From assembly GCF_024399475.1 (NCBI RefSeq), contig NZ_CP101620.1, positions 434,001 to 498,000 on the forward strand: a stretch of 64,000 nucleotides of DNA, given 5' to 3'. This document shows, piece after piece, positions 8,908-27,013 of the stretch (its first letter is position 1; the number at the start of each line of letters is the position of its first letter). The translations under genes and the position numbers were made by a program. Origin of the DNA: Allocoprobacillus halotolerans (GTDB lineage: Bacteria > Bacillota_I > Bacilli_A > Erysipelotrichales > Coprobacillaceae). The notes beneath the pieces are model-generated. The model had not been told where the DNA came from, searched no databases, and saw nothing but the letters and a program-made list of their open reading frames with translations.

Positions 8908-9805
8908 TTATCCTTAAAAACCGGATAGAAAGCTTGATAAGTTTTTATCAAACCAGTTTGAAAAGGAGTATATTCTAGATGTAATTGTTGAACTATTTTT
9001 TGTCCATCGTAATATTCCATTTCTTCTAAAGACAATGGATAAGGCAAAGGATATTGTAATTGCAAGGCTTCTTCAATAGAATGTTCTTCTATTTTGATAT
9101 CAGGCTGACAGAGTTGTAAGATTTGATTGATTGAATCATAAGTAATCATTTCCCCACTCACAACATTATAAATCTCATTATAAGCTTTCTTTACAATGAC
9201 TTTTTCGATGGCTTGAACAACATCTTCCACATAAACCATTTGAAATGGAAATGGTGCATCATGCAAAGAAAATAATGGCAATCCTTTAACAACCCTTTCT
9301 ATTAACAATGATTCTCTGGGAGCATAATTGAAAGGTCCATAAATATTTCCAGGTCTTAAAATGGTATAAGGCATCTGATATTGGTTAGACATCTTTATAA
9401 GTTCTTGTTCTAAAAGAACTTTTCCAGTGATATATTCACCAGCCTCTCCTGCAAAATGACGTGTTTCTAAAGGATGTTCTTCAGTTTTATTGATACCTGT
9501 TTGACGTTGATAAACATCCACTGTACTAATGAAAACATAATGACGAAATCGTCCAGAAAAAGATTCTATGACTGTTTGAATATCACCAGGCTGATAGGCA
9601 CAAAAATCAATCACAACATCATAATCTTCCTTTGGTAATTGTTGCCAGGAACTTTTATCATGACGATCAAAAACATATGCTTTTACATCATAATCTGCCA
9701 TCGTATAATGGCCTCGATTGACAAGTGTACAATTCCATTTTTTCGCAAAACTCATTGTACAAAGACGTCCTAAAAATAACTTCCACCAATGATTAATACC
9801 TTCAT
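8895..9805 (-). CDS. NAD-dependent epimerase/dehydratase family protein (frameshifted at N-terminus)
   Basis: Short-chain-dehydrogenase-like protein with a Rossmann fold. The printed frame starts at 9755, but the nucleotide-binding start (KVLIIGG, then a short loop to LG) lies upstream in another frame. An ATG at 9805 follows AAAGGAGG, and adding one base to the A5 run at 9772-9776 joins it in frame (span is 2 mod 3). Later features are VVIDFCAY, FISTVDVYQ with the Y of a YxxxK-type site less clear, and RPGNIYGP. The substrate is unknown; similar proteins are annotated as NAD-dependent sugar epimerases or reductases. Confidence 0.8.
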
Positions 9806-9863
9806 CTTATTCCCTCCTTTTTTCTATTATATAGAAAAACCACTATAGGTACAACTTATATGC

Positions 9864-10031
9864 CTATAATGGTAAATCACGCTTTTGAAAAATCCATTGT
9901 CCTAAAATAAAACATATCAATGCTCCAAGACATAAAATACCTAATATTTCACCTTCGTATATCTCAAAACTTATATCAAAAACACCACGATGATATCCAT
10001 AATCCTTTGTAAGATGAGTGACACTTATCAT
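9864..10031 (-). pseudogene. Chimeric remnant: ABC ATPase 5' end joined to ABC permease 3' end
   Basis: A 55-codon frame. Codons 1-32 (MISVTHLTKDYGYHRG ... YEGEILG) are the start of an ABC-2-type ATPase, ending just before the expected Walker A loop. Codons 33-55 (ALICFILGQWIFQKRDLPL) look like the last membrane helix and tail of an ABC permease. The join is in frame. Everything between, at least 1.5 kb in a normal ATPase-permease operon, is missing. Read as a deletion scar rather than a functional peptide. Confidence 0.7.
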
Positions 10032-10051
10032 CTTCTATCTTCCCCATCTCT

Positions 10052-10743
10052 TTATAATAGACTTGCCACCAAAGGTGCTAAAAAGACCGTTAAAATTCCT
10101 GCAACAACGATGGATAAACTACTCATAGCTCCTTCAATTTCACCAAACTCTAAAGCTTTAGCTGTTCCAATCGCATGTGCACTATTGCCACATGCCAACC
10201 CCACAGCAATAGGATGATGAATATGAAATATGCGTAAAATACTTTTAGCAATCATAGCTCCAAAAATACCTGTCATAATAACAATCCCCACTGTCATTGT
10301 AGCATTTCCATGTATCAATTGAGATATTCCCATAGCAATAGCAGTTGTTATTGATTTTGGTAACATTGACAACAAAAGGACATCACTGGCACCAAGCAAT
10401 ATACACAAAAGAACAACACAAATCATACCTGCAAGACATCCACTCAAAATACTTAATAAAATTGCATCCAAATGTTTTATCAATATCTGGCTTTGTTTAT
10501 ATAAAGGAACTGCTAAACAAACAGTAGATGGTGTCAATAAAAAACTAATATATTGTCCACCTTCGTTATATGTCTCAAAATCAATATCAAAAATAACTAA
10601 TATCACAATAGAAAAAAAGCACTCATCAATAATGGATTCAAAAGAGGATAATTCCATTTCTTTCGTATCTCTACAGCCAACCAATAAGTCAACAAACTTA
10701 AAACAATTCCAAAATAAGCTGTATTCATCAATAAATCATTCAT
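10052..10743 (-). CDS. lrgB: LrgB-family membrane protein (frameshifted)
   Basis: Integral membrane protein of the LrgB/CidB family, thought to act with LrgA in control of murein hydrolase activity or metabolite export. The printed frame begins internally at 10684. The true start is ATG at 10743, overlapping the lrgA stop, and encodes NTAYFGIVLSLLTYW and KWNYPLLNPLL. Adding one T to the minus-strand T7 run at 10612-10618 joins this to FDIDFETYNEGGQYISFLL, giving about 230 residues, the family norm. Conserved segments include LTPSTVCLAVPLY and GLACGNSAHAIGTAKA. Confidence 0.88.
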
Positions 10744-12837: not shown

Positions 12838-12868
12838 AAAAAAGATACTCTTTATTTTGAAGAGTACC
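12838..12868 (-). terminator. Terminator of the amino-sugar salvage operon
   Basis: AAGGTACTCTT and AAGAGTATCTT pair with a single mismatch around a short loop, followed by a run of seven T on the minus strand. The last gene of the eight-gene operon ends inside the upstream arm. Confidence 0.8.
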
Positions 12869-13769
12869 TTTCATCCTTTATCATATTTTCATATTCTTTT
12901 CTTCCTAATAAATAAGCACCATATTCAGGAGGATAGATAGGTGAACCTAAATGACAATGAAGATCAGATAAATATTTTTGAAGAGGTTTTAAGATATAGT
13001 CCTGTGCTTGAAATACACCGCCAATATAAGAAACTACAAAAGGCTTTTTAAAGTTTTTAGCAAGTGTATGGATGAATAAAGAAAGATGATAAGCAGCCTG
13101 ATGATAAATTTCAATAGCATGAGGATCATTTGCCTGAGCCAAAAAATAATTCACTTTAGCAAGTTTTGCGATTTCTTTTCTTTCATTTGACAATGAATGA
13201 CGATATGAAATGATATCATAGTCATCTTCTAATTGACACACTTTCTTTACTTGATCATAAAGTTGCGTTTGAGCAATACGTCCATCTACTTGTTGACAAT
13301 ATTTTTGAATAAGTTGATTACCAATCCAAAAAGCACTGCCTTCATCGCCTAGCTGATAGCCCCATCCTCCACATCTTTTCGTTTGTCCATTTTGATAAGA
13401 ATAAGCAATCGAACCAGTTCCTGCAATCACGACAATACCATTTTGACCATTCAAAGCCCCCATCATCGCAATCTGTACATCATTATATAAACGATATTGA
13501 TAACCATCAAAAGCCTTTTGACAAATAGTTTCAATTTTTCTTCTTAATTTTTCCTGATTTCCATAACCTGCTAATCCTGCCACAATAAAAGCATTATGCA
13601 TAGGGGCTAATCTTTCAACATTTTTTCGTAGAATCTCTATACATTTTTGATAATCCTGTGTTAAAACATGCACCGATTCATCTACCGTTTCTTTCAACAG
13701 ATGTCCATCTTCATCATAAAGAACAAACTTTGTTTTTGTGCCACCACCATCAATTCCTATATACAACAT
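12852..13769 (-). CDS. BadF/BadG-family N-acetylhexosamine kinase (MurK/NagK-like)
   Basis: ATP-dependent sugar kinase of the ASKHA fold. Phosphate-1 motif is YIGIDGGGTKTKFVL at the N-terminus, then the adenosine and phosphate-2 regions VVIAGTGSIAYSY and GGWGYQLGDEGSAFWIG. Its length of 305 matches GlcNAc and GlcNAc/MurNAc kinases such as clostridial MurK. It is the last gene of the operon, and its start overlaps the end of the MupG gene. The natural inferred role is phosphorylating the free GlcNAc released when MupG cleaves MurNAc-6P-GlcNAc. The specificity for GlcNAc or MurNAc cannot be read from sequence. Confidence 0.85.
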   Translation of the reverse strand: MLYIGIDGGGTKTKFVLYDEDGHLLKETVDESVHVLTQDYQKCIEILRKNVERLAPMHNAFIVAGLAGYGNQEKLRRKIETICQKAFDGYQYRLYNDVQIAMMGALNGQNGIVVIAGTGSIAYSYQNGQTKRCGGWGYQLGDEGSAFWIGNQLIQKYCQQVDGRIAQTQLYDQVKKVCQLEDDYDIISYRHSLSNERKEIAKLAKVNYFLAQANDPHAIEIYHQAAYHLSLFIHTLAKNFKKPFVVSYIGGVFQAQDYILKPLQKYLSDLHCHLGSPIYPPEYGAYLLGRKEYENMIKDERYSSK

Positions 13770-14868
13770 GTTGACTCCTTTATTTCTCTAAGTCTAAATT
13801 TCTGCCATGGCTTTATATAGTCTAAAATCATGATTTCTTCATCTTTTATACGTCCTACAACGTTAGACATTCCACTATTTTTCATATCTTTTAAAGCAAT
13901 TTGTAATTCTCCTGCATAATGACCATACTCACTACTTTCTATCACAATATCACCTTTATGTATGATTTCAGGTGTATGAAGCACATCAAAATGATAACCT
14001 TTATATTTGACTCGACTTTGGGTTGAACGAATCATATATTCATTGATATCGCCACGATGAAAATGAAGTTCTTCAAATAATATTTTCTTTTCTATTTTAG
14101 GTAGTTCAATCAATGATTGAACATCAAAAGTCACTAACTGACAATCTAAATCCTTTAATTCAGCTAATTCCTGTGCAGATGGATAACAATTTGAAATAAT
14201 AATATCATCAACCATATTTAAAGTAATCATATGTTTGATTTGTGTTATTAATGATAATTCTCTATGCATTTCTAATGTAGGTAATCCATTCGTTACAGGC
14301 CATGAACCAAAAGTCTTTTTATTTTGACTTGTCACAAATGCAGCCGTACGCAAACCATATTTTTTAAAACGTTGGCTACATTGAATAAAATACTCTAAAG
14401 ATAATCCACTATATCTATGTGGATAAAAATTATGACAACCTAACAATTGATATTGATTAGGTTGATAATCCATAATCGTATCGATTGTATGAACATCATT
14501 ACTCATATTAATTTCTATTTTTAAATGATAAGGGTTATAAGTCATCAAAGCTTCTTCATTACCTGAAAAACCAGCATCTAAACGTAAACCATCAGCTCCA
14601 ATTTCCTTAAAAAAGATAATTCTTGGTAACTGATTCCTAATTTTTGAAAAACACGTGGCGAGACATCAACGATAATTTCAAATCCTTTTTCTTTGGCATA
14701 TAAGTTAATATCTTTAAAATCTTCAATAATTTCTTCTTTACTTTTTTCTACTGATAATAAACAAGAAAAAATACGTGAAAAACCTAATTTTGACATTTGA
14801 TCAATATAATTTTTAATTTCTTCTTTTGTTGATTTTTCAGGGTATATAGATATTCCTAATCTTCTCAT
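13757..14868 (-). CDS. mupG: MupG-like 6-phospho-N-acetylmuramidase (DUF871), copy 1, frameshifted
   Basis: Cytosolic hydrolase expected to cleave the MurNAc-6P-GlcNAc disaccharide. The N-terminal part (LGISIYPEKSTKEE, SRIFSCL, VDVSP) stops early at 14578. Adding one T to the minus-strand T6 run at 14609-14614 continues it into FFKEIGADGLRLDAGFSG and the C-terminal part (NFYPHRYSGLS, AAFVTSQ, GLPTLEMHRE). The repaired span is 370 codons, typical for DUF871, with an N-terminal TIM barrel and a C-terminal cyclophilin-like domain. It resembles the second copy at 16966-18000 but is clearly divergent. Confidence 0.85.
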
Positions 14869-16016
14869 GATATTTCCTCCTCAACTTTAAGATATTGATC
14901 ATACTTTAAGAAGAATGGCAAATAAGATAACAAAGATAAAATAATCAATCCTATAATATAAATGATAGTTATCATATGACCGTCAGTTGCCCATAATCCT
15001 CCTATTATTGATGGTAAAACCCAAGGTGCAATCAATACACTATAATGAAGATATCCTTGAGCCATCAGTAAATATGTAACCAGAGCACACAATAAAGGCG
15101 TTACAAAAAAAGGAATTTTCATATAATGATTTTCTACCACTGGAACACCAAATAAAATGGGTTCATTGACATTTAATAAACTGCCTTGAAATGAATCATT
15201 CCCTAATTTTTTTAAAGTATGACTTTTCGCAAAAAAACGACACAAAAGAGTCAGACCTAATGTTGTTCCTGAACCACCAATCCATACAAACCATTGATAA
15301 AAACCTTCTACCCCTATATAATGGGGTGTTTGACCATTTAATAAGCACATAAAATTAATCATAATCATCTGCATCCAAAAAGGACGGATGATGGCTCCTA
15401 ATATGGATACCGCATGGATACCTGTATACCAAAAATAACATGTGATAAAGACGATCAATAATACTCCCGCTAATGAAGAAACAAAATTCATAAAGAAATA
15501 AAATACATATATAAGATAAGGCATATAAAAATTTTGAAGATATACACATATGCTAACCAATATGAAAGCAACAAAAAATGGAATGAGCTGAATAAAATAT
15601 TGAGTGAGAATGGTTGGCAAAAAAGAAATTTTTATTTGCCAGTGCACTATACGATATAAACATTCCAAAATCAACATATTGCAAATGAATAATGGAAAAG
15701 TATACTGTAAAGTATCTTCCATGGAATGACTATATATAACCATAAAACAAAGCAATAATGTCATCAGTACATTTTGTGATACTGTCATATTTCTAAGTCG
15801 AGTATAATGGATTGTATAAAAAACATTAATGAAAACACAATAAAGGAAAGCAACCATCATCATAAAGAGATTGATAAATGGTAAATTGAATATTTTTTGA
15901 ATAAAGTATAGAATTCCCATACAAATCATGTATGGTACAAAATCAGCATATGTCAATTTAATAGATTGGAAATAGATATTCTCACTTAATCGATGAATAT
16001 AATCACTCATATACAT
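14865..16016 (-). CDS. PTS EIIC, lactose/cellobiose family, no cognate EIIA/EIIB (operon copy 2)
   Basis: Membrane permease domain with about ten hydrophobic segments and the family signature NVNEPILFGVPVV near residue 285, containing the sugar-contacting Glu; IGGSGTTLGLT precedes it. At 383 residues it is shorter than the usual 430-450, and the first cytoplasmic region is reduced. It lies between murQ and mupG and overlaps the mupG start, so its substrate is probably a cell-wall amino sugar. No EIIA or EIIB of this family occurs anywhere in the window. Known MurNAc importers (MurP) are EIIBC of the glucose family, so this is an alternative route. Confidence 0.82.
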   Translation of the reverse strand: MYMSDYIHRLSENIYFQSIKLTYADFVPYMICMGILYFIQKIFNLPFINLFMMMVAFLYCVFINVFYTIHYTRLRNMTVSQNVLMTLLLCFMVIYSHSMEDTLQYTFPLFICNMLILECLYRIVHWQIKISFLPTILTQYFIQLIPFFVAFILVSICVYLQNFYMPYLIYVFYFFMNFVSSLAGVLLIVFITCYFWYTGIHAVSILGAIIRPFWMQMIMINFMCLLNGQTPHYIGVEGFYQWFVWIGGSGTTLGLTLLCRFFAKSHTLKKLGNDSFQGSLLNVNEPILFGVPVVENHYMKIPFFVTPLLCALVTYLLMAQGYLHYSVLIAPWVLPSIIGGLWATDGHMITIIYIIGLIILSLLSYLPFFLKYDQYLKVEEEIS

Positions 16017-16031
16017 ATCCTCCTTTAAATA

Positions 16032-16058
16032 AATAACAGACTGAAAACAGTCTGTTAT
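16032..16058 (-). terminator. Intra-operon hairpin after murQ
   Basis: Perfect stem AATAACAGACTG / CAGTCTGTTATT with an AAAA loop. It contains the restored murQ stop codon and lies before the EIIC gene ribosome binding site. The following T tract is weak, so it may be an attenuator or an mRNA-processing or stability element within the operon. Confidence 0.6.
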
Positions 16059-16956
16059 TCTTGAATTGCTTTTTTACAAAGCCCTGATTTTTTTCTAGTC
16101 TTTCTTGAGCTTCTTCTACACTACAATTTAATAATATTTTGATAATCGCTGTTTTCACTTGTCTATCACATTCTTCAAAAGCCTGTTGTGCTACTGTATA
16201 ATCACAACCAGTTGCTTCCATGATAATACGCTTACTTCTTTCAACCAGTTTCTCATTTGATGGTTTTAAATCTACCATCAAATTTTGATATGTTTTACCA
16301 ATTCCAACCATAGATGCTGTTGACAACATATTTAAAACGAGTTTTTGAGCTGTTCCAGCTTTCAAACGTGTCGAACCAGTAATAACTTCAGCACCTAAAT
16401 CCATATCTATCGCAAGATGTGCGACTTTTCCTATCTCACTGTTGGGATTGCAAGCAATACTAATCGTATAAGCCCCAATCTCATTGGCTTGTTTTAAAGC
16501 ACCAATTGTATGTGGTGTTCTTCCACTTGCTGCTATTCCTACAACAACATCCTTATCAGTAATTCCTGCTGCTAAGATTTCTTTTTTACCATCTTCTTCA
16601 TGATCTTCAGCACCTTCTTTAGCTTTCACAAAAGCCGATGTTCCTCCTGCAATGATGCCATTGATTTCATCTGTTGTACTAAAAGTGGGCGGACATTCTA
16701 CTGCATCAAGAATTCCTAAACGTCCACTTGTCCCACTCCCCACATAGAAAAGTTTTCCTCCTTGTTGAAGAGAATGAATAATCATTTGTACAGCTTTTTC
16801 AATCAGTGGCAAAACTTCTTGAACACGTAAAGGAACTAAAGTATCCTCTTCATTCATAACTGTCAAAAATTCATGGATGCTCATATCATCAAGATTCATT
16901 GTTTTTAGATTTCTACTTTCTGTCACCAAATGAGAAATATTTATTTTATTCATCAC
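16055..16956 (-). CDS. murQ: N-acetylmuramic acid 6-phosphate etherase MurQ (frameshift in last codons)
   Basis: Removes the D-lactyl ether from MurNAc-6P to give GlcNAc-6P. It has an SIS sugar-phosphate fold with hallmark FYVGSGTSGRLGILDAVE (near residue 66), ECPPTF, GIAASGRTPHT (near 135) and GSTRLKAGTAQKL (near 195). The printed frame runs on past the natural end. Adding one A to the A6 run at 16070-16075 gives the usual FVKKAIQE terminus and a stop at 16055 (300 residues). It lies 9 bp downstream of mupG copy 2 in the same operon. Confidence 0.95.
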
Positions 16957-16965
16957 AATACTCTC

Positions 16966-18000
16966 CTATAATCTTTCTAATATAATTGTCGTTTTTGCAT
17001 CAATATAATCGACAATATCTACATATTCAGGATGGATAAATCCAATAACATTTGTTCTTGCTTCAAATGGCAAATCTTCTTTGATAATATAAACTTCTCC
17101 ACTATAACGTCCAGCTAATTGATTTTCCATAACGATATATCCACGTTGACGCATAGTGTTATGGAAAACTGGAACATTTGATAAGCGAGGCAATGATAAC
17201 CTGACAATCATTTCTGGTTGATCTTTTCTAACGTTTATTTTTTGATTATATAAATAAGCGTACTGACTTTCTAAATGGCATGGAATATGCATCTCACCAT
17301 TTTCCATATAAGCTTTTATATTTTTAAGGGTAGGAATGGAAGCTTGGCTATCTCCTATAAATATATCTTTCATTCCACAGTCATGAATCAATTCAACAGC
17401 AGCAACATATGGATTCATCGTACGATGTTTTTCAACGGTTGGTAATCCTTCATATAATGGAAATCTTTTTAACACATCTCCACATACAAAAGCTTGAATT
17501 GTTAAATCATATTGATGAAAGATTTTATTTTTTTCTTGAAAATAATCTAATGATAAGCCTGTTTCCTTATGAGGATAAAAATTATGTGTAACAGCAATGC
17601 GTTTCAAATCAATACCTGCTAGTTTAGCTCCTTGAAGATATTCTTCATCTATAACACTCGCATTTAACATTAAATAGAAATCTTTTTGTAAAGTTTTTAT
17701 CATTTCATAATCATCAAAACCATAATCTAATCTCAAAGCCTCAAATCCCATTTCTTTAAGTTTTTGATAATGATGTGGTTGAATATTTAACTTTTCAAAA
17801 GTAGCTGGTGAAACATCAGGAACGACCTGTAAACCAAGTTTCTGGCATTGCTTGAAAAAGATTGGTAATTTTTGATCTAAATCAGAATAATCTTCTTCAG
17901 GAATATGTAATGAAGTAAAAACATATTCCACTCCACAATTTCTTGCATCTTCAAGATATTTTAAATCAAGATCTTGAAAATATATTGATATACCTAGCAT
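16966..18000 (-). CDS. mupG: MupG-like 6-phospho-N-acetylmuramidase (DUF871), copy 2
   Basis: Intact 344-residue member of the DUF871/MupG family, expected to split MurNAc-6P-GlcNAc inside the cell. The TIM-barrel half shows GISIYFQDLDL, VVPDVSP, ALRLDYGFDDYE, TVEKHRTMNPYVAA; the C-terminal cyclophilin-like half includes AGRYSGEVYI near 300. It lies between the PIG-L and murQ genes with short gaps, so it is co-transcribed. Two divergent copies in one operon suggest two related substrates, for instance disaccharides with different linkages or modifications; that is inference. Confidence 0.9.
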   Translation of the reverse strand: MLGISIYFQDLDLKYLEDARNCGVEYVFTSLHIPEEDYSDLDQKLPIFFKQCQKLGLQVVPDVSPATFEKLNIQPHHYQKLKEMGFEALRLDYGFDDYEMIKTLQKDFYLMLNASVIDEEYLQGAKLAGIDLKRIAVTHNFYPHKETGLSLDYFQEKNKIFHQYDLTIQAFVCGDVLKRFPLYEGLPTVEKHRTMNPYVAAVELIHDCGMKDIFIGDSQASIPTLKNIKAYMENGEMHIPCHLESQYAYLYNQKINVRKDQPEMIVRLSLPRLSNVPVFHNTMRQRGYIVMENQLAGRYSGEVYIIKEDLPFEARTNVIGFIHPEYVDIVDYIDAKTTIILERL

Positions 18001-18011
18001 ATTGTTTTCCT

Positions 18012-18682
18012 CTATTCATTATTTGATAATGGTGCATGCATATACGCTTTAACAGGTGCTGATATACTTCCTTCAATCGCTCTCACTTTTAATTGAGCTT
18101 GATAATACTTTTGATAAGGAACATCATTTACTTTTCCATTAAAAATCGTATACTTCTTTAATGCATCAAACCATATTTGAACTTGTTCATCAGTCACTGT
18201 GACATAACATGTAGGTGTAAATCCTATGAGATCCTCACAGTTTTCTCCATACAACAATTGAATTTCTATTCCTTCTTTTCTCAATCTTTGAACGGCTGCA
18301 GTAACTGTTTCATATGTATAATAATGTCGTGGATGCATTGTACCTCTCCAATGAGTGACAACCAAATCAACTTTTTCTTTTTTAAAGTAATCCATGAGTA
18401 TTCCTATGAATTCTTCTTGATCTGGAAGAGTTGCAGAAGTATATTTCATATTCAAACAATCACATAACATAGTTTTATCACATTCTATATTTTCTTGACG
18501 AATGTTATCTAGATATTCTTTTTTTCTTGTTCTGTAGCATCTTTACGATCTAATCTTCCTTCAGTCACATTGATCATTGTACAATGTGCGCCTTGCATTG
18601 CATACTTTATAAGTAATGGTCCACCCATAAGTTCGGCATCTAAATGGTGACCTCCTATACACACAAGTCTTTTATATTTCAT
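18012..18682 (-). CDS. PIG-L/LmbE-family deacetylase (frameshifted)
   Basis: Zinc-dependent de-N-acetylase family acting on GlcNAc-containing compounds. The upstream part, from ATG 18682, encodes RLVCIGGHHLDAELMGGP; in this family an AHPDDxE motif normally supplies zinc ligands, and here the segment reads GHHLDAE. Adding one A to the A7 run at 18519-18525 joins it to DLVVTHWRGTMHPRHYYT, where the later HxxxH-type ligand occurs. The repaired length is 223 residues. Its position between mupG and a GNAT gene suggests removal of an acetyl group from a cell-wall amino sugar. The variant zinc motif makes the activity uncertain. Confidence 0.78.
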
Positions 18683-18684
18683 GA

Positions 18685-19629
18685 CTATACCTCTTTTCTA
18701 TATAATTGATATGTTCTATAAACTTTGACATCATGTCTTTCATAGAAACGTTGAGCTGCACCATCAGTCCATAAAAAGTAAAGATAGCAAATTCCTTTTT
18801 GTTTCATTTCTTGCATCATATATTCAAATAATACGCCACCAATACCTTTTGATCTTAATTGTTCACTTACACCAAAAGGTCCAAAACGTGCATCATTGCC
18901 ATCAATCTTTCTCATACAGAATCCTAAAATCTGATTCTGTTCATTTACGACTAATAAAATTGTATCAACAGCTTCATTTTTTTGCATCGCAATCAAAGCA
19001 TTACGTTTCCAGCCAGCTCCAAAATTTTCCAACAAATAGTCCAATAATGGCAACATATATTCATCATGATAACGAATGATATGAATACCTTCTTTTTCTA
19101 ATGAAATAAGTTTCTCTTTATATTGATTGGACATATGATAATCCCATAGACTTCTTTGCATACTTACTGATTCATTGCGAAAAACATAGTTTCTTTTTTC
19201 AAAGAATGCGATAGCATTTTGATATCTTTTATCAATGCCAGGGAAGAAATAATTAGGACTATAGGCACATAAAGTTATTTCTTTTGTTCCTAAATCTTTC
19301 AATCTTTTTTCCACTTCATCACATAATAAAGTTCCAATACCTTGATGTTGATATTCTGGAAGAACACCCATAATGACTATCCATCCACGATTCTCTTCTA
19401 ATCCTCTTTCTAAATAAGGAATTTTTCTTCTTACACCATAACAAAATCCCAATACTTTTTCCTCGTTTGTAGCGAGCAGGAATAAATTTGAATCAAAATT
19501 TTCATCTAACAAAATAAGTTGTTTAAATCTTTCTTCATCAATTACATCATAAATCAAGCTTTCATTCCAACAAGTTAATACTTGTTGGAATTTATCTTGA
19601 TGAAAACTTTCTAACTTCACATTTCCCAT
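18685..19629 (-). CDS. Tandem-GNAT N-acetyltransferase
   Basis: 314 residues holding two GCN5-related acetyltransferase domains. The first (about 1-160) has an acetyl-CoA pyrophosphate loop in EYQHQGIGTLL, and the second (about 170-314) has one in EQLRSKGIGGVLFEY. It lies two bases upstream of the PIG-L deacetylase start and 12 bp downstream of the EIIC gene. A deacetylase and an acetyltransferase side by side in a muropeptide operon could swap acyl groups on an amino sugar. The substrate is not visible in the sequence. Confidence 0.82.
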   Translation of the reverse strand: MGNVKLESFHQDKFQQVLTCWNESLIYDVIDEERFKQLILLDENFDSNLFLLATNEEKVLGFCYGVRRKIPYLERGLEENRGWIVIMGVLPEYQHQGIGTLLCDEVEKRLKDLGTKEITLCAYSPNYFFPGIDKRYQNAIAFFEKRNYVFRNESVSMQRSLWDYHMSNQYKEKLISLEKEGIHIIRYHDEYMLPLLDYLLENFGAGWKRNALIAMQKNEAVDTILLVVNEQNQILGFCMRKIDGNDARFGPFGVSEQLRSKGIGGVLFEYMMQEMKQKGICYLYFLWTDGAAQRFYERHDVKVYRTYQLYRKEV

Positions 19630-19641
19630 ATATATTATCTC

Positions 19642-21024
19642 CTATTGATTATTTTCTATTTGAGGGGATGTATCATCACCTTGCATATCCATTTCTTGTT
19701 GAACAGCTAATTCTGCTTTTAATTCCTGTCTTTCCATAACTTTAAAGAATGGTAAGAAAATAAAGAATATAATTACAAAGTTAATTAAACTAATAATCAT
19801 TGCTGAAATTTTAAATCCTGAACCAATAAATGCCATTAATGGAACAGGCATTGTCCAAACGACATTCGCTACAATCGGTGGTTCTATTCCAATTGAAATT
19901 AAGATTGCATTCCAAATAAACATAACACAAAAACCAATAACCCAAGGTACAAACATAAGTGGATTTAATACCATTGGTAATCCATACATAATAGGTTCAG
20001 CAATATTAAACACTGTTCCAACAATTGATAATTTTCCTAATACTTTAAATCTTTTAACCGATGAAATAACACAAAGCAATGCAATTGGGAAGACACTTAA
20101 TCTAACATAAGCATTTACCCAGATTGATGAAAATAAATAAGGTATATCTTGACCAGCAGCAAAAGCCGCTAAGTTCGATGCTGCCATACTTTCCCAAATT
20201 GGAGTCATAATTGATCCAACAATATTTGAACCATGTAAACCAACAAACCAGAAAATACGATCCAAGAAAAATGCAAAGAATTGAGCTACTGGGCCACTTC
20301 CAGCTACGACAAGATGAGAACTCAAATCGTTAAATATTGTCATTAAATTAAATCCTTCAATATTTCTTCCTACAAATGCACAAATAATCATAATCACAGT
20401 AATAGGAATCAAACTTGTAAAAGCATCGGCAACCATTTGCGTAACACCATTAGGCATTTTAATTGTAATATTTTTATGAACAAGATATCTATAAATTTCT
20501 ACTGTTACAATACTAATTAAAATCGCAGTAAATAAACTTGGAGCTCCTAAAATATAAGCAGGCCAATCAAAATTTTCTGATAAAGTCGTAAAATCAATAA
20601 AACATAAGAATCCAATAAGACCTGCAATAGCACAAACAATAGCATTTACTTTTTTATCATAGTTTTTATGATAATATTCACCAAGGTAATATGCATTCAA
20701 AATAGCTGTCAATAAAGCCATTAAGTTAATACTTATAAATACAAGTTGTGTGAGTCCTGGTCTTATCACATCAATGATACCATTAATTGTTGCAGCTACT
20801 TCTGGCATTCCTAGTCCAGTGCCTTCTGCAAATAAGCCACCTAAATTTAATACTAATGTCGCTGTTGCACCAAGTATCATATAAGGCATAAAAACAATAA
20901 AAGTCTTTTGTAATGTTTGTAAATAACGAATATTTGAAATACGAATTAAAGGTGGTGCTAATCGATTTTCTACAAAATCACTGATTCGCTCCATAACATT
21001 TCCTTTCTTATGAATATCACTCAT
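19642..21024 (-). CDS. PTS EIIC, lactose/cellobiose family, no cognate EIIA/EIIB (operon copy 1)
   Basis: First gene of the amino-sugar operon. Start set at ATG 21024, after GGAGATAAAACT, rather than at upstream codons that would overlap the promoter. About 460 residues with ten hydrophobic segments; signatures are VGLHGSNIVGSIMTPIWES near 275 and NIAEPIMYGLPMVLN near 345. It has a normal CelB-type length. No EIIA or EIIB partner is encoded in the window, so phosphate would have to come from subunits elsewhere, or the protein works as an uncoupled transporter. The substrate is inferred from neighbours to be a MurNAc/GlcNAc disaccharide. Confidence 0.85.
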   Translation of the reverse strand: MSDIHKKGNVMERISDFVENRLAPPLIRISNIRYLQTLQKTFIVFMPYMILGATATLVLNLGGLFAEGTGLGMPEVAATINGIIDVIRPGLTQLVFISINLMALLTAILNAYYLGEYYHKNYDKKVNAIVCAIAGLIGFLCFIDFTTLSENFDWPAYILGAPSLFTAILISIVTVEIYRYLVHKNITIKMPNGVTQMVADAFTSLIPITVIMIICAFVGRNIEGFNLMTIFNDLSSHLVVAGSGPVAQFFAFFLDRIFWFVGLHGSNIVGSIMTPIWESMAASNLAAFAAGQDIPYLFSSIWVNAYVRLSVFPIALLCVISSVKRFKVLGKLSIVGTVFNIAEPIMYGLPMVLNPLMFVPWVIGFCVMFIWNAILISIGIEPPIVANVVWTMPVPLMAFIGSGFKISAMIISLINFVIIFFIFLPFFKVMERQELKAELAVQQEMDMQGDDTSPQIENNQ

Positions 21025-21156
21025 AGTTTTATCTCCTTCTAGTCCCTCTCTTTTCTTTTGATAATCGCGATTTATTATTTCTAGAAACCCCTTACATCGG
21101 ACTATCTTAAGTATAGCACTCCTTTTTCTCATTTACAATACTTTTCCCAAAAAAAA

Positions 21157-21188
21157 TGGAACTTTTCTCAAAAACTAGAAAATTTCCA
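21157..21188. promoter_or_regulatory. Palindromic operator for divergent RpiR regulator
   Basis: Half-sites TGGAACTTTTCT and AGAAAATTTCCA form an inverted repeat (11 of 12 positions) around an 8-nt centre. It lies between the divergent EIIC operon and the rpiR gene, just upstream of a good promoter for the latter. Position and symmetry fit the binding site of an RpiR-family dimer. Confidence 0.7.
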
Positions 21189-21190
21189 TA

Positions 21191-21220
21191 TTTACACATA
21201 TTTTTAATTCATGTTATAAT
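21191..21220 (+). promoter_or_regulatory. Promoter of RpiR regulator gene
   Basis: TTTACA and TATAAT separated by 18 nt, about 20 bp upstream of the rpiR start codon and adjacent to the palindromic operator. Confidence 0.6.
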
Positions 21221-21239
21221 GTTAATACGAGGTGATTTT

Positions 21240-22034
21240 ATGAATCCTAAAGAACACATCAGGCTACACGAAACAGAATTTACAAAATCAGAAAAAATTA
21301 TCGAAGAATATGTTTTAAAAAACTTTGATACAATTTCTTCCTATCCTATTCAGGAAGTTGCCAAAAAATGTAAAGTTTCTAAATCTGCACTTTTAAGATT
21401 TTGTCAAAAATGTGGCTTTAGAGGATATAGTGAATTTCGTTATGAAGTATCACGCTATGTTCATTCAATGGTAGAGATGGATACTGATGATGATAATAGC
21501 TCTTCCATCTATTTATCTCTATATGCTAACAGGATTCAACAACTTCAACAATCTACCAGTTCTCAATTTCTAGATCATATTATTCAACTTATAAAAGACG
21601 CTTACAAAATTAAAATATATGGTATTCACGAAACTGGTTTATCGGCTCAATATCTTTCCTATCGTTTATGTACAATCGGTATTGATTCTGAGGCCATTGT
21701 CAATTCAAGTATTATGACTGAAAAAGCATTAATGTCAAATCAAGATGATCTTAATATATTTCTATCTCTATCTGCTGAAACAACAGTCATTAAAGATGCT
21801 ATTCAATATGCTTATGAATCCCATTCAAAAATCATTTTAGTAACTCAAAATAATCATCATAGTTTTCATCAAAAAATCGATAAAGAAATTATTTTGCCAA
21901 CTTTTAATAATGAAGATTTACATTTTTTTATTGATTCTCAAGCTCTCGTTTTTATAACTATAGACTTGATTATTAATCATCTCGCAAAAAACCTACAAAA
22001 CCAGAAAAATAAAACAGTTTGTACTGCCTTATAA
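21240..22034 (+). CDS. RpiR-family transcriptional regulator of amino-sugar operon
   Basis: 264 residues. Start is ATG 21240 after GAGGTGATTTT; an upstream in-frame ATG would cover the operator. It has an N-terminal RpiR helix-turn-helix (VAKKCKVSKSALLRFCQKCGFRGYSEFR, read as two adjoining segments, residues about 33-60) and a C-terminal SIS domain (about 110-250) that would sense a sugar phosphate. Divergent from the eight-gene operon, with a palindrome between them, so it is the likely local regulator. MurNAc-6P is the known effector of the related MurR and a reasonable guess here. Confidence 0.88.
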   Translation: MNPKEHIRLHETEFTKSEKIIEEYVLKNFDTISSYPIQEVAKKCKVSKSALLRFCQKCGFRGYSEFRYEVSRYVHSMVEMDTDDDNSSSIYLSLYANRIQQLQQSTSSQFLDHIIQLIKDAYKIKIYGIHETGLSAQYLSYRLCTIGIDSEAIVNSSIMTEKALMSNQDDLNIFLSLSAETTVIKDAIQYAYESHSKIILVTQNNHHSFHQKIDKEIILPTFNNEDLHFFIDSQALVFITIDLIINHLAKNLQNQKNKTVCTAL

Positions 22035-22047
22035 AATAACAAGAGAA

Positions 22048-23100
22048 TTACTCATTTATAATCTTCTTTTTTTGTGTCAAATATTTTATCACAAATTCAT
22101 GAAATTCTTTACGCCAATCTAATATTTTTTTGTTTTCTCGTGTTGGATGCACTCTATTGGACAATAAGATAATAGCTATTTGATTTTCCAAATCAATCAA
22201 TAGCGATGTACCAGTAAAACCAGTATGAGCAATTGTTTTCTTAGAATTTAATGACGAAAAAAGACTATGAGTTGTATAAGTCAAAAATCCAATACCTCTT
22301 GGAATTTGATTCTCTGGTGAAAAATTAGTAAACATATTGTCAATATGCCTTTTATTGAGAAATGTTTGATTTTTATATTTTCCATTATTCAAAATCATTT
22401 GTGCATAATGTTCCAAATCTTGAATATGAGAAAACAGACCTGCATGTCCAGCTATGCCTCCCATCATCCAAGCTTTATGATCATGAACTTCACCTCTTAA
22501 CATACGATGGGCATACAAACTATATTCAGTAGGAGCACATTTTTCAATATCTGATGGACAAAAACATGTATGAGTCATTTCTAATGGTTTAAAAATTTCT
22601 TTATCTAAAACTTCTTGTAAAGATTGTTGCGTTATGATTTCAATGATTTCACCTAGAATAATGTAACCTAAATCAGAATAAATAACTTCCTTTCCAGGGA
22701 TAACCTGATGCGAATACTGACAAATCCTTTGAACAATCTTACGCTTATCTTCATTCATACTCCAATCAAAATCTGCTGGCAATCCAGAAGTATGTGTCAA
22801 TAAATGAAAAACTGTTATGTTATTATTTTTGAAGTCTGGCAAAATATATTGAATTGGAGTATCATATGATATATATTTTTCCTGAATCAGTTTCAAAATC
22901 ATAGGTGTTGTTGCAACAACTTTTGTAAGACTAGCTAAATCATACAAAGTATCAAGATCATTTTCTTTGGGTGATATAATTTGTGATTTATATCCCACAC
23001 AATAACGTTCTATATTTTGATGATCAATAATAGAGCAACAACAACCTGGGAAAATATTTTCTTTATATGCATTATTTAAAAAATTTTTTATCTCGTTCAT
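22048..23100 (-). CDS. Beta-lactamase-fold serine hydrolase (YbbE/AmpH-like)
   Basis: 350 residues of the class C beta-lactamase/penicillin-binding fold. The catalytic SxxK is SLTK at residues 57-60 within LYDLASLTKVVATT. The second motif is YSD in VIYSDLGYIILGE, and HTGFTG takes the place of the KTG box. No signal peptide is evident, so it may be cytoplasmic. Orthologues sit beside murQ-type genes in Bacillus (ybbE) and are linked to muropeptide handling. Its promoter carries the palindrome shared with anmK. Confidence 0.85.
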   Translation of the reverse strand: MNEIKNFLNNAYKENIFPGCCCSIIDHQNIERYCVGYKSQIISPKENDLDTLYDLASLTKVVATTPMILKLIQEKYISYDTPIQYILPDFKNNNITVFHLLTHTSGLPADFDWSMNEDKRKIVQRICQYSHQVIPGKEVIYSDLGYIILGEIIEIITQQSLQEVLDKEIFKPLEMTHTCFCPSDIEKCAPTEYSLYAHRMLRGEVHDHKAWMMGGIAGHAGLFSHIQDLEHYAQMILNNGKYKNQTFLNKRHIDNMFTNFSPENQIPRGIGFLTYTTHSLFSSLNSKKTIAHTGFTGTSLLIDLENQIAIILLSNRVHPTRENKKILDWRKEFHEFVIKYLTQKKKIINE

Positions 23101-23482: not shown

Positions 23483-24321
23483 TTATTTCAATAATTGAGA
23501 AACAAGATTTTTTGTTTCATACAATTTATTTTTATTATTTTCTAAATCATGTTTGTATACACCATAATATAATAAATCAGTTACAACTAGCGAAGCTGTT
23601 CTTGATGAAATTGCCCCAATTCTTACTTCTTTTTCTTCCAATGGAATAAACAAATTAAGAGTTGCATTCTTAGCAACGACATTATTAGAATTTTGAGTAA
23701 TAGATAAACTTGGTATGCTATCTTTCTTCAATTTCTTTGCCATTCCTGTAAGACCAGCTGTCGTTCCTGAATAACTTATAAAAATAGCAACGTCATTTTT
23801 TGTCATACTTTCAGCAAAAGTCATTTGGACATGGATATCAGTATTATAAATTGCTTTTTTCCAATTCTTAATAATTTTTGTGAAAAGTCATAAGCAACAA
23901 TAGCTGAACTTCCTACCCCAAACAAATAAATTGTTTGTGCATTAACGATATAATCTATAGCTTTTTGCAAATGTTTTTCATTAATCATCTGATAAGTTTT
24001 TTGAACTGTAGAAACGTTTAACTGACAAGATTTATGAATGAGTGATGTTAAATCATCAGTTTCTTCTAATACTGTATCAATATCTTCTTCTGGTCTTTCC
24101 TGCGACTGAGCTAGACTCATTTTTAATTCTGTAAAACCTTTATAACCTAGTTTTTTAGCAAAACGAATCACTGCTGCAGCCGATGTTTGACTTTTTTCAC
24201 CCAGTTGTTGTGCTGAATCATTTAAAATATCATGGGTATGTTCTAAAATATATTGAGCAATCATCTTTTCAGTAGATGTATAACTCTTTTGCGCTTCTTT
24301 AATTTGTACTAAACAATTCAT
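23483..24321 (-). CDS. RpiR-family regulator, MurR-like (frameshifted)
   Basis: DNA-binding regulator with an N-terminal HTH (SQTSAAAVIRFAKKLGYKG, residues about 42-60) and a C-terminal SIS domain. The SIS part is split: one frame ends after SQKLLRIGKK and the next begins at 23824. Adding one A to the A6 run at 23855-23860 joins them through AIYNTDIHVQMTFAE, giving 279 residues, the family norm. It lies between the hydrolase gene and anmK, each preceded by a TTGAAAT/ATTTCAA palindrome. Predicted to repress both and to respond to a MurNAc- or anhMurNAc-derived phosphate. Confidence 0.87.
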
Positions 24322-24372: not shown

Positions 24373-25512
24373 TTATCTTGGTGGCAGGGTGATATTTCCT
24401 AAAATTACATTGTCTTTAGCTCCAGTGGCACTTTTGATATTAGAAAAATGATGATGCAATGTTTCATTTCCCATAATTGCAAAAGCTATTGCCTCTTTAG
24501 CATCACTGGAATACCCTAATTCATCTTGTGTATAAACAGGGATATCCTTTAATTCCTCTTTTATATATTGAATTAAAGTCTGATTATGACTTCCACCTCC
24601 ACCAATAATAATCTTATCTAAAGAATAATCTTTTAAAATATATTTTTGATAATGATAAGCCATAGATTTGGCAGTAAAATAAGTGAAAGTAGTTATAATA
24701 TCTTCAGGTTTTTCATTTTGATATTGATGAATCAAAGAATGAACATAATTTTCACCAAAATCTTCTCTACCTGTTGATTTAGGTGGTGTTTTTTTCATAT
24801 AAGGATGGGCCATTAACTCTTCAAGTAACTGAGAAATAACACTTCCTTGACTCGCAATACGTCCTTGATCATCATATTCTTGATGATATAATTTTCGACA
24901 CGCTTCATTCATCATCATATTACCTGGACCCGTATCAAATGCTTGTATTCTATGAATATCCTGCCCAATCAATAAAGTCACATTTCCAATACCACCAATA
25001 TTTTGTAAAGCAATATTTTGATTTTCTTGACTATACAAAAGAAATTCACTATATGGAACAAGAGGCGCTCCTTGTCCATTTGCTGCCATATCCATCACTC
25101 TAAAATTTGAAACGATTGTTGTATTAAAAGCATAAGCCAAAATGGCTGGTTCTCCAATCTGCAAAGTCGAAGACAAAAGTTTTCCTTTTTGAAAAGGAAT
25201 ATGATAAATAGTTTGTCCATGTGTCGCAATAAATTGAATGTGTTGAGATGAAATATGATATTTTTCAAGTAACGTCTGCACTGCTTCAACAAATAAATAT
25301 CCTAGTTCAAAATTCAAACTGCAAATTTCATCCACACGAGACAATTTTTCATCACAAGCTCTCTTTATTTTTTCTTTCATTTCTAAAGGCATAGGATATT
25401 CGTGATAACCAATGACTTTTAATTGTGTCTGTAATCCATAACCTTCAATATCAACTAATACTGTATCCACACCATCCATTGATGTTCCTGACATGATTCC
25501 AATTGCATACAT
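24373..25512 (-). CDS. anmK: Anhydro-N-acetylmuramic acid kinase AnmK
   Basis: Hydrolyses the 1,6-anhydro ring of anhMurNAc while phosphorylating it with ATP, giving MurNAc-6P for MurQ. 379 residues, the usual length. Hallmarks: AIGIMSGTSMDGVD at the N-terminus, ATHGQTIYH near 115, NIGGIGNVTLL near 175, FDTGPGNMMMNEA near 195 and IIIGGGGSHNQTL near 305. It has its own promoter region with the palindrome at 25544-25560, separated by a terminator from the GH4 gene upstream. Confidence 0.95.
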   Translation of the reverse strand: MYAIGIMSGTSMDGVDTVLVDIEGYGLQTQLKVIGYHEYPMPLEMKEKIKRACDEKLSRVDEICSLNFELGYLFVEAVQTLLEKYHISSQHIQFIATHGQTIYHIPFQKGKLLSSTLQIGEPAILAYAFNTTIVSNFRVMDMAANGQGAPLVPYSEFLLYSQENQNIALQNIGGIGNVTLLIGQDIHRIQAFDTGPGNMMMNEACRKLYHQEYDDQGRIASQGSVISQLLEELMAHPYMKKTPPKSTGREDFGENYVHSLIHQYQNEKPEDIITTFTYFTAKSMAYHYQKYILKDYSLDKIIIGGGGSHNQTLIQYIKEELKDIPVYTQDELGYSSDAKEAIAFAIMGNETLHHHFSNIKSATGAKDNVILGNITLPPR

Positions 25513-25618: not shown

Positions 25619-27013
25619 TTATAATCCTTTTTCAGTTAATTCTCTAGCAACATCATCTTTGATTGTCACACCTTCAGCTTCAAGCTGAGCAATCTTATCA
25701 GCAAATTGTGGTAAGTATTTTTTATGTGCTAATAATAATTCATCTAAGACACGTTTTGCTGTTTCTCCTGATGGAATTTGTGGGTTTAAAATGAAAGCTT
25801 GTAAAGCCATTCCATAATCTCCTGTCACAGCTGCTTCTTCTACACACCATTCCATATTTTTCATACATTGTAGCCATCCTCTTTCAGCAGGTTGTAATGG
25901 TCCAAATGCAATCGCTCTTGCACCTGTCGTTCCAATAAATGCTGAAACTTCAACAGCTGAATCAGCTGGTAAATCAGGTACTGCTCCATTATTTCTTGTT
26001 GTAACTACGATATGTGAATTCTTATTGGCATAGATTGAAGCAATTGTTTCACAAGCAGCATCACTGTAATGTGCTCCACCACGTTTTGCAAGTTGTTCTG
26101 GTTTATGGTCTAAATCAGGGTTCTTGTATAATTCAAATAATTCTTCTTCAGTTTGTTTAACTTGTTGTGCTCTTGTTCCAATTGTATTGTATTCTTCTAA
26201 TCCATGTTTTAACATTTCTTCTTGACGATAGTAGTATCTATGGTATCCACATGGAATCATTTGCATTTGATCTAATTGTTCTTTAAAGAATGGAATATCA
26301 TGAATATTGGCTGGAATTCCTCCATCTTTTCCTTCATACATTGCATCAATGATTTGTTGTGTCACTTCTTGTCCATTTTCATCAAAGACTTTATGCCAAT
26401 GGAAATGATTCAATCCAGCAAATTTATAAGTTAATTGATCCAATGTTTTTCCAATTGTTTCAGGTTCTTTCATCATCGCTCCAACAGGCACATTACATAA
26501 TCCAATGACTTTATCCCATTTACCATATTTCATAACAGCTTCAGTCACCATTCCACTTGGATTTGTAAAGTTAATTAACCATGCATTAGGACATAATTCT
26601 TTCATATCTTCTACAATGCTTAAAATCACAGGGATTGTTCTAAAAGCTTTAAAAATACCTCCAGCACCATTTGTTTCTTGTCCTAACATTCCATAAGAGA
26701 AAGGAATTCTTTCATCTTTTACACGTGCATTCAATAACCCAACTCTAAATTGTGTTGTAACAAAGTCAGCATCTTTTAAAGCTTCTCTGCGATCTAAAGT
26801 TAAATGAACTTTCACATCATAAGGAGATGCATCCCACATACGTTGAGCCATTGTTCCAACAATCTCTAATTTTTCTTTACCATCTTCAATATCAACTAGC
26901 CAGATTTCTTTGATTGGAAGTTCATCATATCTTTTAATAAATCCTTCCATTAATTCAGGTGTATAGCTACTTCCACCACCAATAGTAACAATTTTTACAG
27001 GTTTCTTTTCCAT
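25619..27013 (-). CDS. GH4 6-phospho-beta-glucosidase (LicH/CelF type)
   Basis: NAD- and metal-dependent hydrolase of phosphorylated disaccharides in the cytosol. The Rossmann start VTIGGGSSYTPELMEGF, the RVGLLNARVKDERIP and GQETNGAGG segments, INFTNPSGMVTEA, and the metal-binding Cys/His in GLCNVP and GLNHFHWH are all present. The 464-residue length is standard. It is a monocistronic gene on the minus strand between the GntR unit and anmK. It probably takes phosphorylated products of beta-glucoside PTS systems. A substrate containing an amino sugar is possible from the context. Confidence 0.9.
   Translation of the reverse strand: MEKKPVKIVTIGGGSSYTPELMEGFIKRYDELPIKEIWLVDIEDGKEKLEIVGTMAQRMWDASPYDVKVHLTLDRREALKDADFVTTQFRVGLLNARVKDERIPFSYGMLGQETNGAGGIFKAFRTIPVILSIVEDMKELCPNAWLINFTNPSGMVTEAVMKYGKWDKVIGLCNVPVGAMMKEPETIGKTLDQLTYKFAGLNHFHWHKVFDENGQEVTQQIIDAMYEGKDGGIPANIHDIPFFKEQLDQMQMIPCGYHRYYYRQEEMLKHGLEEYNTIGTRAQQVKQTEEELFELYKNPDLDHKPEQLAKRGGAHYSDAACETIASIYANKNSHIVVTTRNNGAVPDLPADSAVEVSAFIGTTGARAIAFGPLQPAERGWLQCMKNMEWCVEEAAVTGDYGMALQAFILNPQIPSGETAKRVLDELLLAHKKYLPQFADKIAQLEAEGVTIKDDVARELTEKGL

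Follow-up and report, generated by a model that had tools for sequence, protein, structure and literature searches.

The stretch of DNA analyzed here (the window, 64,000 nucleotides) covers positions 434001-498000 of the 2.93-Mb single-contig genome of Allocoprobacillus halotolerans and carries eight minus-strand genes, at window positions 12852-21132, which are separated by intergenic gaps of -14 to +12 bases and follow each other in the direction of transcription as EIIC-A, a tandem GNAT, a PIG-L-like protein, MupG-2, MurQ, EIIC-B, MupG-1, and a BadF-type kinase. A first interpretation made from the letters alone (the sequence-only reading) had described them as an eight-gene operon for muropeptide sugars at 12852-21024. 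The eight same-strand, tightly packed genes are confirmed, whereas the proposed end of the unit is not, the set extending to a serine hydrolase, an RpiR regulator, and AnmK, up to 25512. With gene families assigned by Pfam and NCBIfam, and by comparison with relatives, the locus consists of two modules, an operon of the N-acetylmuramic acid (MurNAc) salvage type and a cassette in which the tandem GNAT is accompanied by a PIG-L-like protein with an altered active site.

19642..21132 (likely start 21024), minus strand: EIIC-A, permease of the lactose/cellobiose family of the phosphotransferase system (PTS), member of the GNAT/PIG-L cassette (PF02378, TIGR00410)
18685..19629, minus strand: tandem GNAT, GlmA-like amino-sugar N-acetyltransferase (structure and profile matches 5kf1-5kgp and 4zm6)
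18012..18680, minus strand: PIG-L/LmbE-fold protein with HxLD and HxRH motifs, split by a frameshift here (family assigned via intact relatives)
16966..18000, minus strand: MupG-2 (GH170/DUF871), 6-phospho-N-acetylmuramidase family (PF19200 and PF05913)
16003..16956, minus strand: MurQ, MurNAc-6-phosphate etherase (TIGR00274, 377.7 bits, cut-off 302)
14865..16016, minus strand: EIIC-B, diverged PTS permease of the lactose/cellobiose family (PF02378; TIGR00410 below cut-off)
13757..14868, minus strand: MupG-1 (GH170/DUF871), split by a frameshift here (PF19200/PF05913; nearest solved relative 1x7f)
12852..13769, minus strand: BadF-type amino-sugar kinase, for N-acetylglucosamine (GlcNAc) and/or MurNAc (PF01869, 113 bits)
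21156..22034 (likely start 21240), plus strand: divergent RpiR-type regulator of the cassette (PF01418 and PF01380)
22048..23100, minus strand: serine hydrolase of the beta-lactamase fold, part of the same salvage set (PF00144, 165 bits)
23483..24321, minus strand: second RpiR regulator, in two frames here (PF01418 and PF01380 on separate frames)
24373..25512, minus strand: AnmK, anhydro-MurNAc kinase (PF03702, 332 bits; NF007142, 560 bits, cut-off 435)

The PIG-L-like protein departs from its superfamily at two active-site Asp positions. The LmbE superfamily is characterized by an HXD1D2 motif and a further His. In the ten enzymes that PMC4101496 tabulates, D1 is without exception the residue proposed as general base, although for BshB the same source suggests that D1 acts only as a general acid; in MshB, replacement of Asp146 by Ala leaves 1% or less of the activity (PMC4101496). 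In the group of relatives that contains the window protein (the window group), D1 is Leu in 21/21 aligned rows and also in the N-terminal piece from the window (HHLD), that is, in 22/22, this column being aligned with the H-A-D-D of BshB. The equivalent of MshB Asp146 (BshB Asp112) is Arg in 22/22 members. The residues corresponding to the metal ligands are kept (His 21/21, Asp 21/21, His 22/22), the His144 equivalent is invariant in all rows that cover it (21 or 22/22 in the window group and 32/32 in a more distant group described below), and an E-x-E-D stretch is invariant in both groups. The protein named a PIG-L deacetylase by the sequence-only reading belongs to the fold family, PF02585 being matched (49-63 bits, cut-off 28.2) by each of the five intact relatives examined, but the absence of the general-base Asp means that deacetylase activity cannot be assumed. 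Among solved structures, the window group has its relatives in BshB and the archaeal diacetylchitobiose deacetylases. Judged by this defining feature of the motif, it should probably not be filed as a PIG-L deacetylase.

Three close pairs of PIG-L-like genes gave dN values (nonsynonymous substitutions per site) of 0.026-0.038 against dS values (synonymous) of 0.81-1.9, corresponding to dN/dS ratios of about 0.01-0.05, which indicates that the protein is maintained; wider pairs were either saturated or gave ratios near 0.17. The GNAT is likewise under strong purifying selection in three close pairs. A structure model of the PIG-L-like protein was set aside as too poor (predicted local distance difference test score, pLDDT, of 48), and no fold search was made from it. 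The gene at 9759-10433 of locus L082 combines the HALD of one PIG-L group with the GERGN of the other, and is a possible intermediate between them.

The second member of the cassette is recognizable over its whole length as a tandem GNAT. Its profile matches GlmA, the glucosamine (GlcN) N-acetyltransferase of C. acetobutylicum (5kf1-5kgp), with an hmmsearch E-value of 1e-32 over profile positions 12-314, and also the acetyltransferase region of RmNag (4zm6). In a fold look-up among the best 1000 Foldseek chains, its AlphaFold model (pLDDT 73) reached Z 24.3 with 4zm6; for the 5kf/5kg entries listed, Z was 23.2-23.7, with 288-293 residues aligned at 19% identity. The equivalent of GlmA Tyr297 is kept in 22/22 pair members and in 63/63 rows overall (57 distinct loci), while Asp287 has no counterpart in the window protein; mutants named in PDB titles suggest that both positions are catalytically relevant. 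A mycothiol-like pathway, in which MshB is a PIG-L protein and MshD a tandem GNAT, was considered and rejected as the model, MshD being a weaker structural match (Z 16.6 versus 23-24); other genes of thiol pathways were not searched for.

Comparison with a congener separates the two modules. Locus L192 of the congener's genome (G001) carries, on one strand, AnmK, RpiR, the serine hydrolase, an EIIC, MupG-2, MurQ, EIIC-B, MupG-1, and the kinase, trailed by the same two downstream genes as in the window, and shows no GNAT, PIG-L, or divergent RpiR at the locus. Search of the family likewise gave no match to the GNAT/PIG-L pair in G001-G004, which represent the genus. Where L192 has its first EIIC, the window has RpiR, EIIC-A, GNAT, and PIG-L. 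Identities between both loci are high for the shared genes (AnmK 78%, second RpiR 87%, serine hydrolase 63%, MupG-2 77%, MurQ 85%, C-terminal piece of MupG-1 77%, kinase 65%, and the downstream genes 83 and 85%), falling to 41% for EIIC-B and to 34% between EIIC-A and the EIIC in the same place. Locus L066, from another family, resembles the window in the cassette, with identities of 70% for EIIC-A, 60% for GNAT, 66% for the PIG-L piece, and 56% for the first RpiR, its MupG-2 copy being 51% identical. The simplest reading is that an RpiR-EIIC-A-GNAT-PIG-L cassette replaced the first EIIC of an L192-type MurNAc operon. As a sign of transfer G+C content is uninformative here (28.6-32.7% for the cassette genes, 30.7% for the window).

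Twenty-three pair loci were compared (the window, L007, L063-L082, and L203, with L084 dropped for lying on the same contig as L072). A scan of genome contigs, run from a single protein and not from an alignment, yielded just two loci. The pair occurs in 2/43 genomes of the family, and in a search of 392 genomes of the phylum, of largely unlisted make-up, all 16 matching genomes belonged to the same class or nearer. GNAT and PIG-L are both present in 22/23 loci, the remaining one (L203) ending at a contig edge; in 20 they are same-strand neighbors, and in two (L070 and L073) a regulator separates them. The sequence-only reading would have been undermined had the pair been unlinked in relatives, and the neighborhood survey found it linked; for MupG the outcome is more modest, this gene lying near the pair in just 7/23 loci. 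In L070 and L073, GNAT and PIG-L lie on opposite strands flanking RpiR, beside a diverged EIIC.

Transporters of the pair loci are of two kinds, a lactose/cellobiose type in 11 (L203 classed so from an EIIB gene alone) and a mannose-type EIIB-EIIC-EIID in 12. MupG was found near the pair in 7/11 loci of the former and in 0/12 of the latter (Fisher p 0.0013, genomes treated as independent). MurQ was found in 3/11 and 4/12, respectively, the split MurQ of L068 being counted. Thus, each of them accompanies 7/23 pair loci, and one or the other 11/23. Among 315 genomes of the order, PIG-L (E 1e-8) is present in 21 and GNAT (E 1e-30) in 32, and MurQ (E 1e-30) occurs in 20/21 PIG-L genomes versus 133/294 others (Fisher p 3.7e-6, with no correction for phylogeny; G341, which carries L082, is outside the order and was excluded). 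Because MurQ occurs with both PTS types, and MupG only with the lactose/cellobiose one, a muramic sugar is suggested as the substrate of the pair.

PIG-L genomes of the order nearly always have the GNAT (20/21), while GNAT genomes have PIG-L in 20/32 cases and are without it in 12/32. In these last 12 genomes the fetched locus contains MupG in seven and MurQ in four, and the large permease of the three GNAT loci tested (L151, L154, and L157) is by domain composition a MurP-like EIIBC. A weak MupG match of 26 bits at the contig end of L153 was left uncounted. A protein of 147-153 residues was also seen near MurQ or MupG in L151, L154, L157, L160, and L161, the L157 and L160 copies being DUF3284 (PF11687); a DUF3284 protein, ChbD, is also described in the chb cluster of L. 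paracasei (PMC12791066).

Both permeases of the window match the lactose/cellobiose family and neither has an EIIB domain, which bears out the earlier description of them as lone EIICs of this type, EIIC-A being above the TIGR00410 cut-off (241 versus 236 bits) and EIIC-B below it (144 bits). No MurP-type EIIBC is present in the operon, and neither EIIB nor EIIA is encoded in the window, where none of the 23 PF02302 and 2 PF02255 matches of the genome falls. The match of EIIC-B to the lactose/cellobiose profile begins only at position 143, and the protein reads WIGGSG where EIIC-A has WFVGLHGSN, the motif His being absent. Its homologues (E 1e-40 or better) were found in 12/43 genomes of the family, that of the window included, and the same fetched region contains MurQ in 11/12, the kinase in 12/12, and a MupG in 6/12. 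MurQ being near 11 of the 12, EIICs of the EIIC-B type are its usual neighbors in the family.

The two MupG copies are strongly divergent, as had been proposed (30% identity over 207 aa), and the two EIIC-MupG sets could suit two disaccharides. The kinase resembles among solved structures the hexokinase 2e2n (E 2e-27) and the MurNAc/GlcNAc kinase 8zo3 (E 4e-25); its score with the NCBIfam NagK model, 141 bits, is under the cut-off of 370, so its specificity is left as GlcNAc and/or MurNAc.

The RpiR-type regulators beside the operon match PF01418 and PF01380, the NCBIfam MurR model giving just 44 bits for a cut-off of 408. The serine hydrolase has no close solved relative at E 1e-20, and the region between EIIC-A and the divergent RpiR (20990-21260) contains no palindrome with exact 7-base arms and loops of up to 11. 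A GH4 glycosidase lies immediately upstream of AnmK (25619-27013), and L198, from the same genus, likewise has a GH4 gene, in two pieces, near AnmK.

Three genes of the region are interrupted in this assembly. MupG-1 occupies two frames, 14868-14578 and 14548-13757, with the break at a T run near 14600; in the PIG-L gene, which begins at 18680, the first frame ends close to 18510, following an A run; and the RpiR gene at 23483-24321, 2 kb off, is also split. The earlier claim of two MupG genes stands as far as both match the family, with the reservation that MupG-1 is not intact here. The two PIG-L pieces are 57% and 54% identical to the intact protein of G006, while the longer piece alone gives no Pfam or NCBIfam match at E 0.001. 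Intact counterparts exist elsewhere, MupG-1 (364 aa, the copy to which the C-terminal piece was compared above) and the second RpiR (286 aa, one frame) in L192, and PIG-L in L007, L063-L067, and other relatives of other genera. The breaks could be either consensus errors or real decay; three frameshifted genes within 11 kb may mean that homopolymer consensus errors are present genome-wide.

A second PIG-L group, with H-x-G-D in place of H-x-L-D, was found in other families of the class at 25-31% identity to the query, and is homologous to the window group (hhalign probability 99.7, 26% identity over 204 columns). In its alignment (32 PIG-L rows from 26 distinct loci, six loci appearing twice; 29 GNAT rows from 23 loci), D1 is Gly in 32/32 rows, the Asp146 equivalent is kept, and the metal ligands are invariant in 32/32. 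Its best solved match, near full length, is the 4-oxalmesaconate hydratase 5cgz (E 3e-14), which also lacks D1 (AHSAD), with BshB1 close behind (6p2t, 2e-13); the window group does not match 5cgz even when E values up to 1 are allowed. Counted on 29/30 genomes, one having no locus, a GNAT of the same kind lies within about 1.5 kb in 23 of the 29 loci and a serine hydrolase in 19. Neighbors in 20 wider stretches, clustered by single linkage and each named from one or two members, include GHL10 (13), GH20 (12), a mixed cluster of M19 dipeptidases and pyridoxal phosphate-dependent decarboxylases (12), LD-carboxypeptidase (7), and ABC permease (5), together with AnmK in L103 and L114 and MurQ in L106, a gene content read as that of muropeptide breakdown. 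Long clusters among L102-L121 (e.g., L116, L110, and L104), in class members with small genomes, bring together serine hydrolase, GNAT, HxGD-type PIG-L, LD-carboxypeptidase, M19 dipeptidase, GH20, GHL10, decarboxylase, and ABC permease, and are possibly complete muropeptide salvage islands.

Taken together, these observations point, with somewhat better than even confidence, to a PTS-driven operon for the salvage of peptidoglycan disaccharides of the MurNAc-GlcNAc type, in which an L192-type MurNAc operon has been joined by the cassette, its PIG-L-like protein acting before the GNAT. The uptake and cleavage of MurNAc-type sugars put forward by the sequence-only reading are supported by the joint presence of MurQ, MupG, AnmK, the kinase, and RpiR in L192 and by MurQ in 20/21 carriers; the acyl-group exchange that it attributed to a deacetylase is not, the general-base Asp being gone in all members read. 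The lactose/cellobiose-type EIICs, with EIIB and EIIA components encoded elsewhere (23 and 2 candidates in the genome), would import and 6-phosphorylate the disaccharides, MupG-type enzymes would split them, the BadF-type kinase would phosphorylate the released sugar, and MurQ would remove lactate from MurNAc 6-phosphate. With the cassette, fragments whose C2 nitrogen bears no acetyl group would become usable as well: the PIG-L-like protein, presumably a metalloprotein, may first free or rearrange the C2 nitrogen, and the GlmA-like GNAT would then acetylate it, making the action of MurQ possible. We infer that both proteins work in sequence, and not in opposition, on the C2 nitrogen of muramic-type sugars. 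The placing of PIG-L before GNAT is suggested by PIG-L being nearly always with GNAT, the reverse holding in only 20/32. Two points suggest a muramic rather than a glucosamine substrate: MurQ, unlike MupG, occurs with either type of transporter, and the two proteins have lost acidic residues while an Arg has been gained. The genome also has three polysaccharide-deacetylase (PF01522) matches, suggesting that the organism's own cell wall could be N-deacetylated as well.

Several observations weigh against this proposal. In 12 of the 23 pair loci the region fetched contains no MurQ and no MupG, for two of them this region being an entire short contig (of 3.7 and 8.2 kb), and the PIG-L carrier G306 has no MurQ match. 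Pairing is less strict in the distant group, 6/29 of whose PIG-L loci are without a detected GNAT within about 1.5 kb, and 4/20 distant stretches (L108, L111, L118, and L120) show none of the muropeptide enzymes listed above. The equivalent of GlmA Asp287 is Leu, Ile, or Val in 22/22 pair members (the column is poorly aligned in the distant group), so the GNAT substrate may differ from that of GlmA. In this genome two operon genes, MupG-1 and PIG-L, are frameshifted, and MupG relatives can act on chitobiose (PMC12791066).

Decay of the operon in this organism, with MupG-1, PIG-L, and one regulator as pseudogenes, is a possibility of some weight, though a doubtful one: the three split genes within 11 kb speak for it, but two of the breaks fall at homopolymer runs, in an assembly of a single contig, a pattern also compatible with consensus error, and the congener has unbroken orthologues of MupG-1 and the regulator, as other genera have of PIG-L. 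Unlikely, too, is that the PIG-L-like protein is a true N-deacetylase working through another base, the GNAT acetylating a different amine in an acyl exchange before cleavage. PF02585 membership, the retained His, Asp, and His ligands, and the invariant E-x-E-D stretch, which could supply the base, are consistent with this; the role of D1 is not settled across the superfamily, a role as general acid only being suggested for it in BshB (PMC4101496), and deacetylation ahead of hydrolysis has a precedent in ChbG, from the chb operon of E. coli (PMC12791066). However, D1 is Leu and the second active-site Asp is Arg in 22/22, the MshB Asp146Ala variant retains 1% or less of the activity (PMC4101496), and removing and adding acetyl groups at one and the same nitrogen would achieve nothing. 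Salvage of chitobiose or chitosan, the GH170 proteins being phospho-beta-N-acetylglucosaminidases like ChbE with a cellobiose-type PTS and the GNAT acetylating glucosaminides, is improbable for the whole. L. paracasei ChbE is indeed a GH170 protein with such a PTS (PMC12791066), and the nearest GNAT structures are GlcN acetyltransferases, but MurQ and AnmK belong to the same gene set, EIIC-B homologues lie near MurQ in 11/12 genomes, and in four loci the pair accompanies MurQ and a mannose-type PTS with no MupG nearby. A plain chitobiose operon was set aside on the linkage to MurQ and AnmK; for one EIIC-MupG set of the two, the chitobiose reading may nevertheless apply.

Other alternatives concern the chemistry of the PIG-L-like protein. 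A role as a metal-dependent, GalB-like hydratase or lyase, acting for example on an unsaturated sugar left by lactate removal, seems very improbable: MurQ itself already performs elimination and hydration, and the resemblance of the distant group to 5cgz, which shares the lack of the D1 Asp, is nearly equaled by that to BshB1 and does not extend to the window group. Equally remote appears a catalytically dead protein serving as partner or regulator of the GNAT, as the loss of two active-site Asp and the near-constant pairing could suggest, since a dead scaffold would not need the invariant metal ligands and His144 equivalent, nor is it expected from a dN far below dS. With little probability, finally, the protein may be an amidohydrolase of muramic-delta-lactam that requires the GNAT as its partner. 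The amide of the muramic-delta-lactam of spore cortex joins the lactyl carboxylate to the C2 nitrogen, and would be the bond position attacked by enzymes of the PIG-L fold; the loss of acidic residues and the gain of Arg would fit a substrate with a lactyl carboxylate. We know of no described salvage route for cortex muramic lactam. Lactam formation by SwsB of B. subtilis reaches full conversion without apparent energy input (PMC12444981), for which reason opening should need a pull, and acetyl-CoA-driven N-acetylation of the freed amine could supply it and return MurNAc, or its 6-phosphate, to MurQ. SwsB is itself a deacetylase homologue with its catalytic base Asp substituted, which acts on the muramic C2 nitrogen without deacetylating it, but as described in PMC12444981 it has the CE4 and not the PIG-L fold and is biosynthetic, in spore cortex, with no salvage operon; given the different fold, the parallel is an analogy only.

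Among known systems, the proposed salvage operon comes closest to the mupG-murQ-murP-murR operon of S. aureus (PMC6262408), with which it shares the combination of MurQ, a MupG-family glycosidase, an RpiR/MurR-type regulator, and PTS uptake, and from which it differs in having EIICs of the lactose/cellobiose family instead of the EIIBC MurP, two MupG, and, in addition, the kinase, AnmK, serine hydrolase, GNAT, and PIG-L-like protein. For Coprobacillus cateniformis the same source notes as many as six MupG paralogues (PMC6262408). The chb cluster of L. paracasei likewise couples a GH170/MupG-like ChbE to a cellobiose-type PTS; its substrate is diacetylchitobiose (PMC12791066), and it is not known to include MurQ, GNAT, or PIG-L. 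MshB, BshB, and diacetylchitobiose deacetylase share with the PIG-L-like protein the PF02585 fold and the His-Asp-His metal ligands, and these LmbE/PIG-L N-deacetylases differ from it at the D1 and Asp146 positions, replaced by Leu and Arg (PMC4101496).

For the GNAT the known counterpart is GlmA, with the likeness in fold and Tyr297 and the differences in identity and Asp287 given above. Reith and Mayer reportedly proposed in 2011 a role for GlmA in the rescue of non-N-acetylated muropeptides, and a PIG-L partner is not known to be part of that description. The statement of the sequence-only reading that no pathway with this combination is described was too strong, since published descriptions exist of a tandem-GNAT GlcN N-acetyltransferase, of MupG (PMC6262408), and of a relative of MupG that is paired with a cellobiose-type PTS (PMC12791066). 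Among the matches listed in searches of the open-access literature, PIG-L or LmbE was absent for MurNAc recycling, MurQ, and muropeptides, and no operon combining MurQ, a cellobiose EIIC, GNAT, and MurNAc appeared by title. What appears to be new, being absent from the matches listed, is the combination of a MurNAc salvage operon with an altered PIG-L-like protein, MupG paralogues and GH170 with a cellobiose-type PTS being already published.

Many bacteria N-deacetylate or otherwise alter the sugars of their peptidoglycan, and how such altered sugars are recovered by other bacteria is little known. Here a conserved two-gene unit, with a deacetylase relative whose base is replaced, recurs among otherwise different MurNAc salvage genes and transporters. 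If the proposed salvage function is true, the label "PIG-L family deacetylase", the expected annotation of its relatives, would misdescribe this subfamily, and muropeptide salvage would include a further reaction yet to be found.

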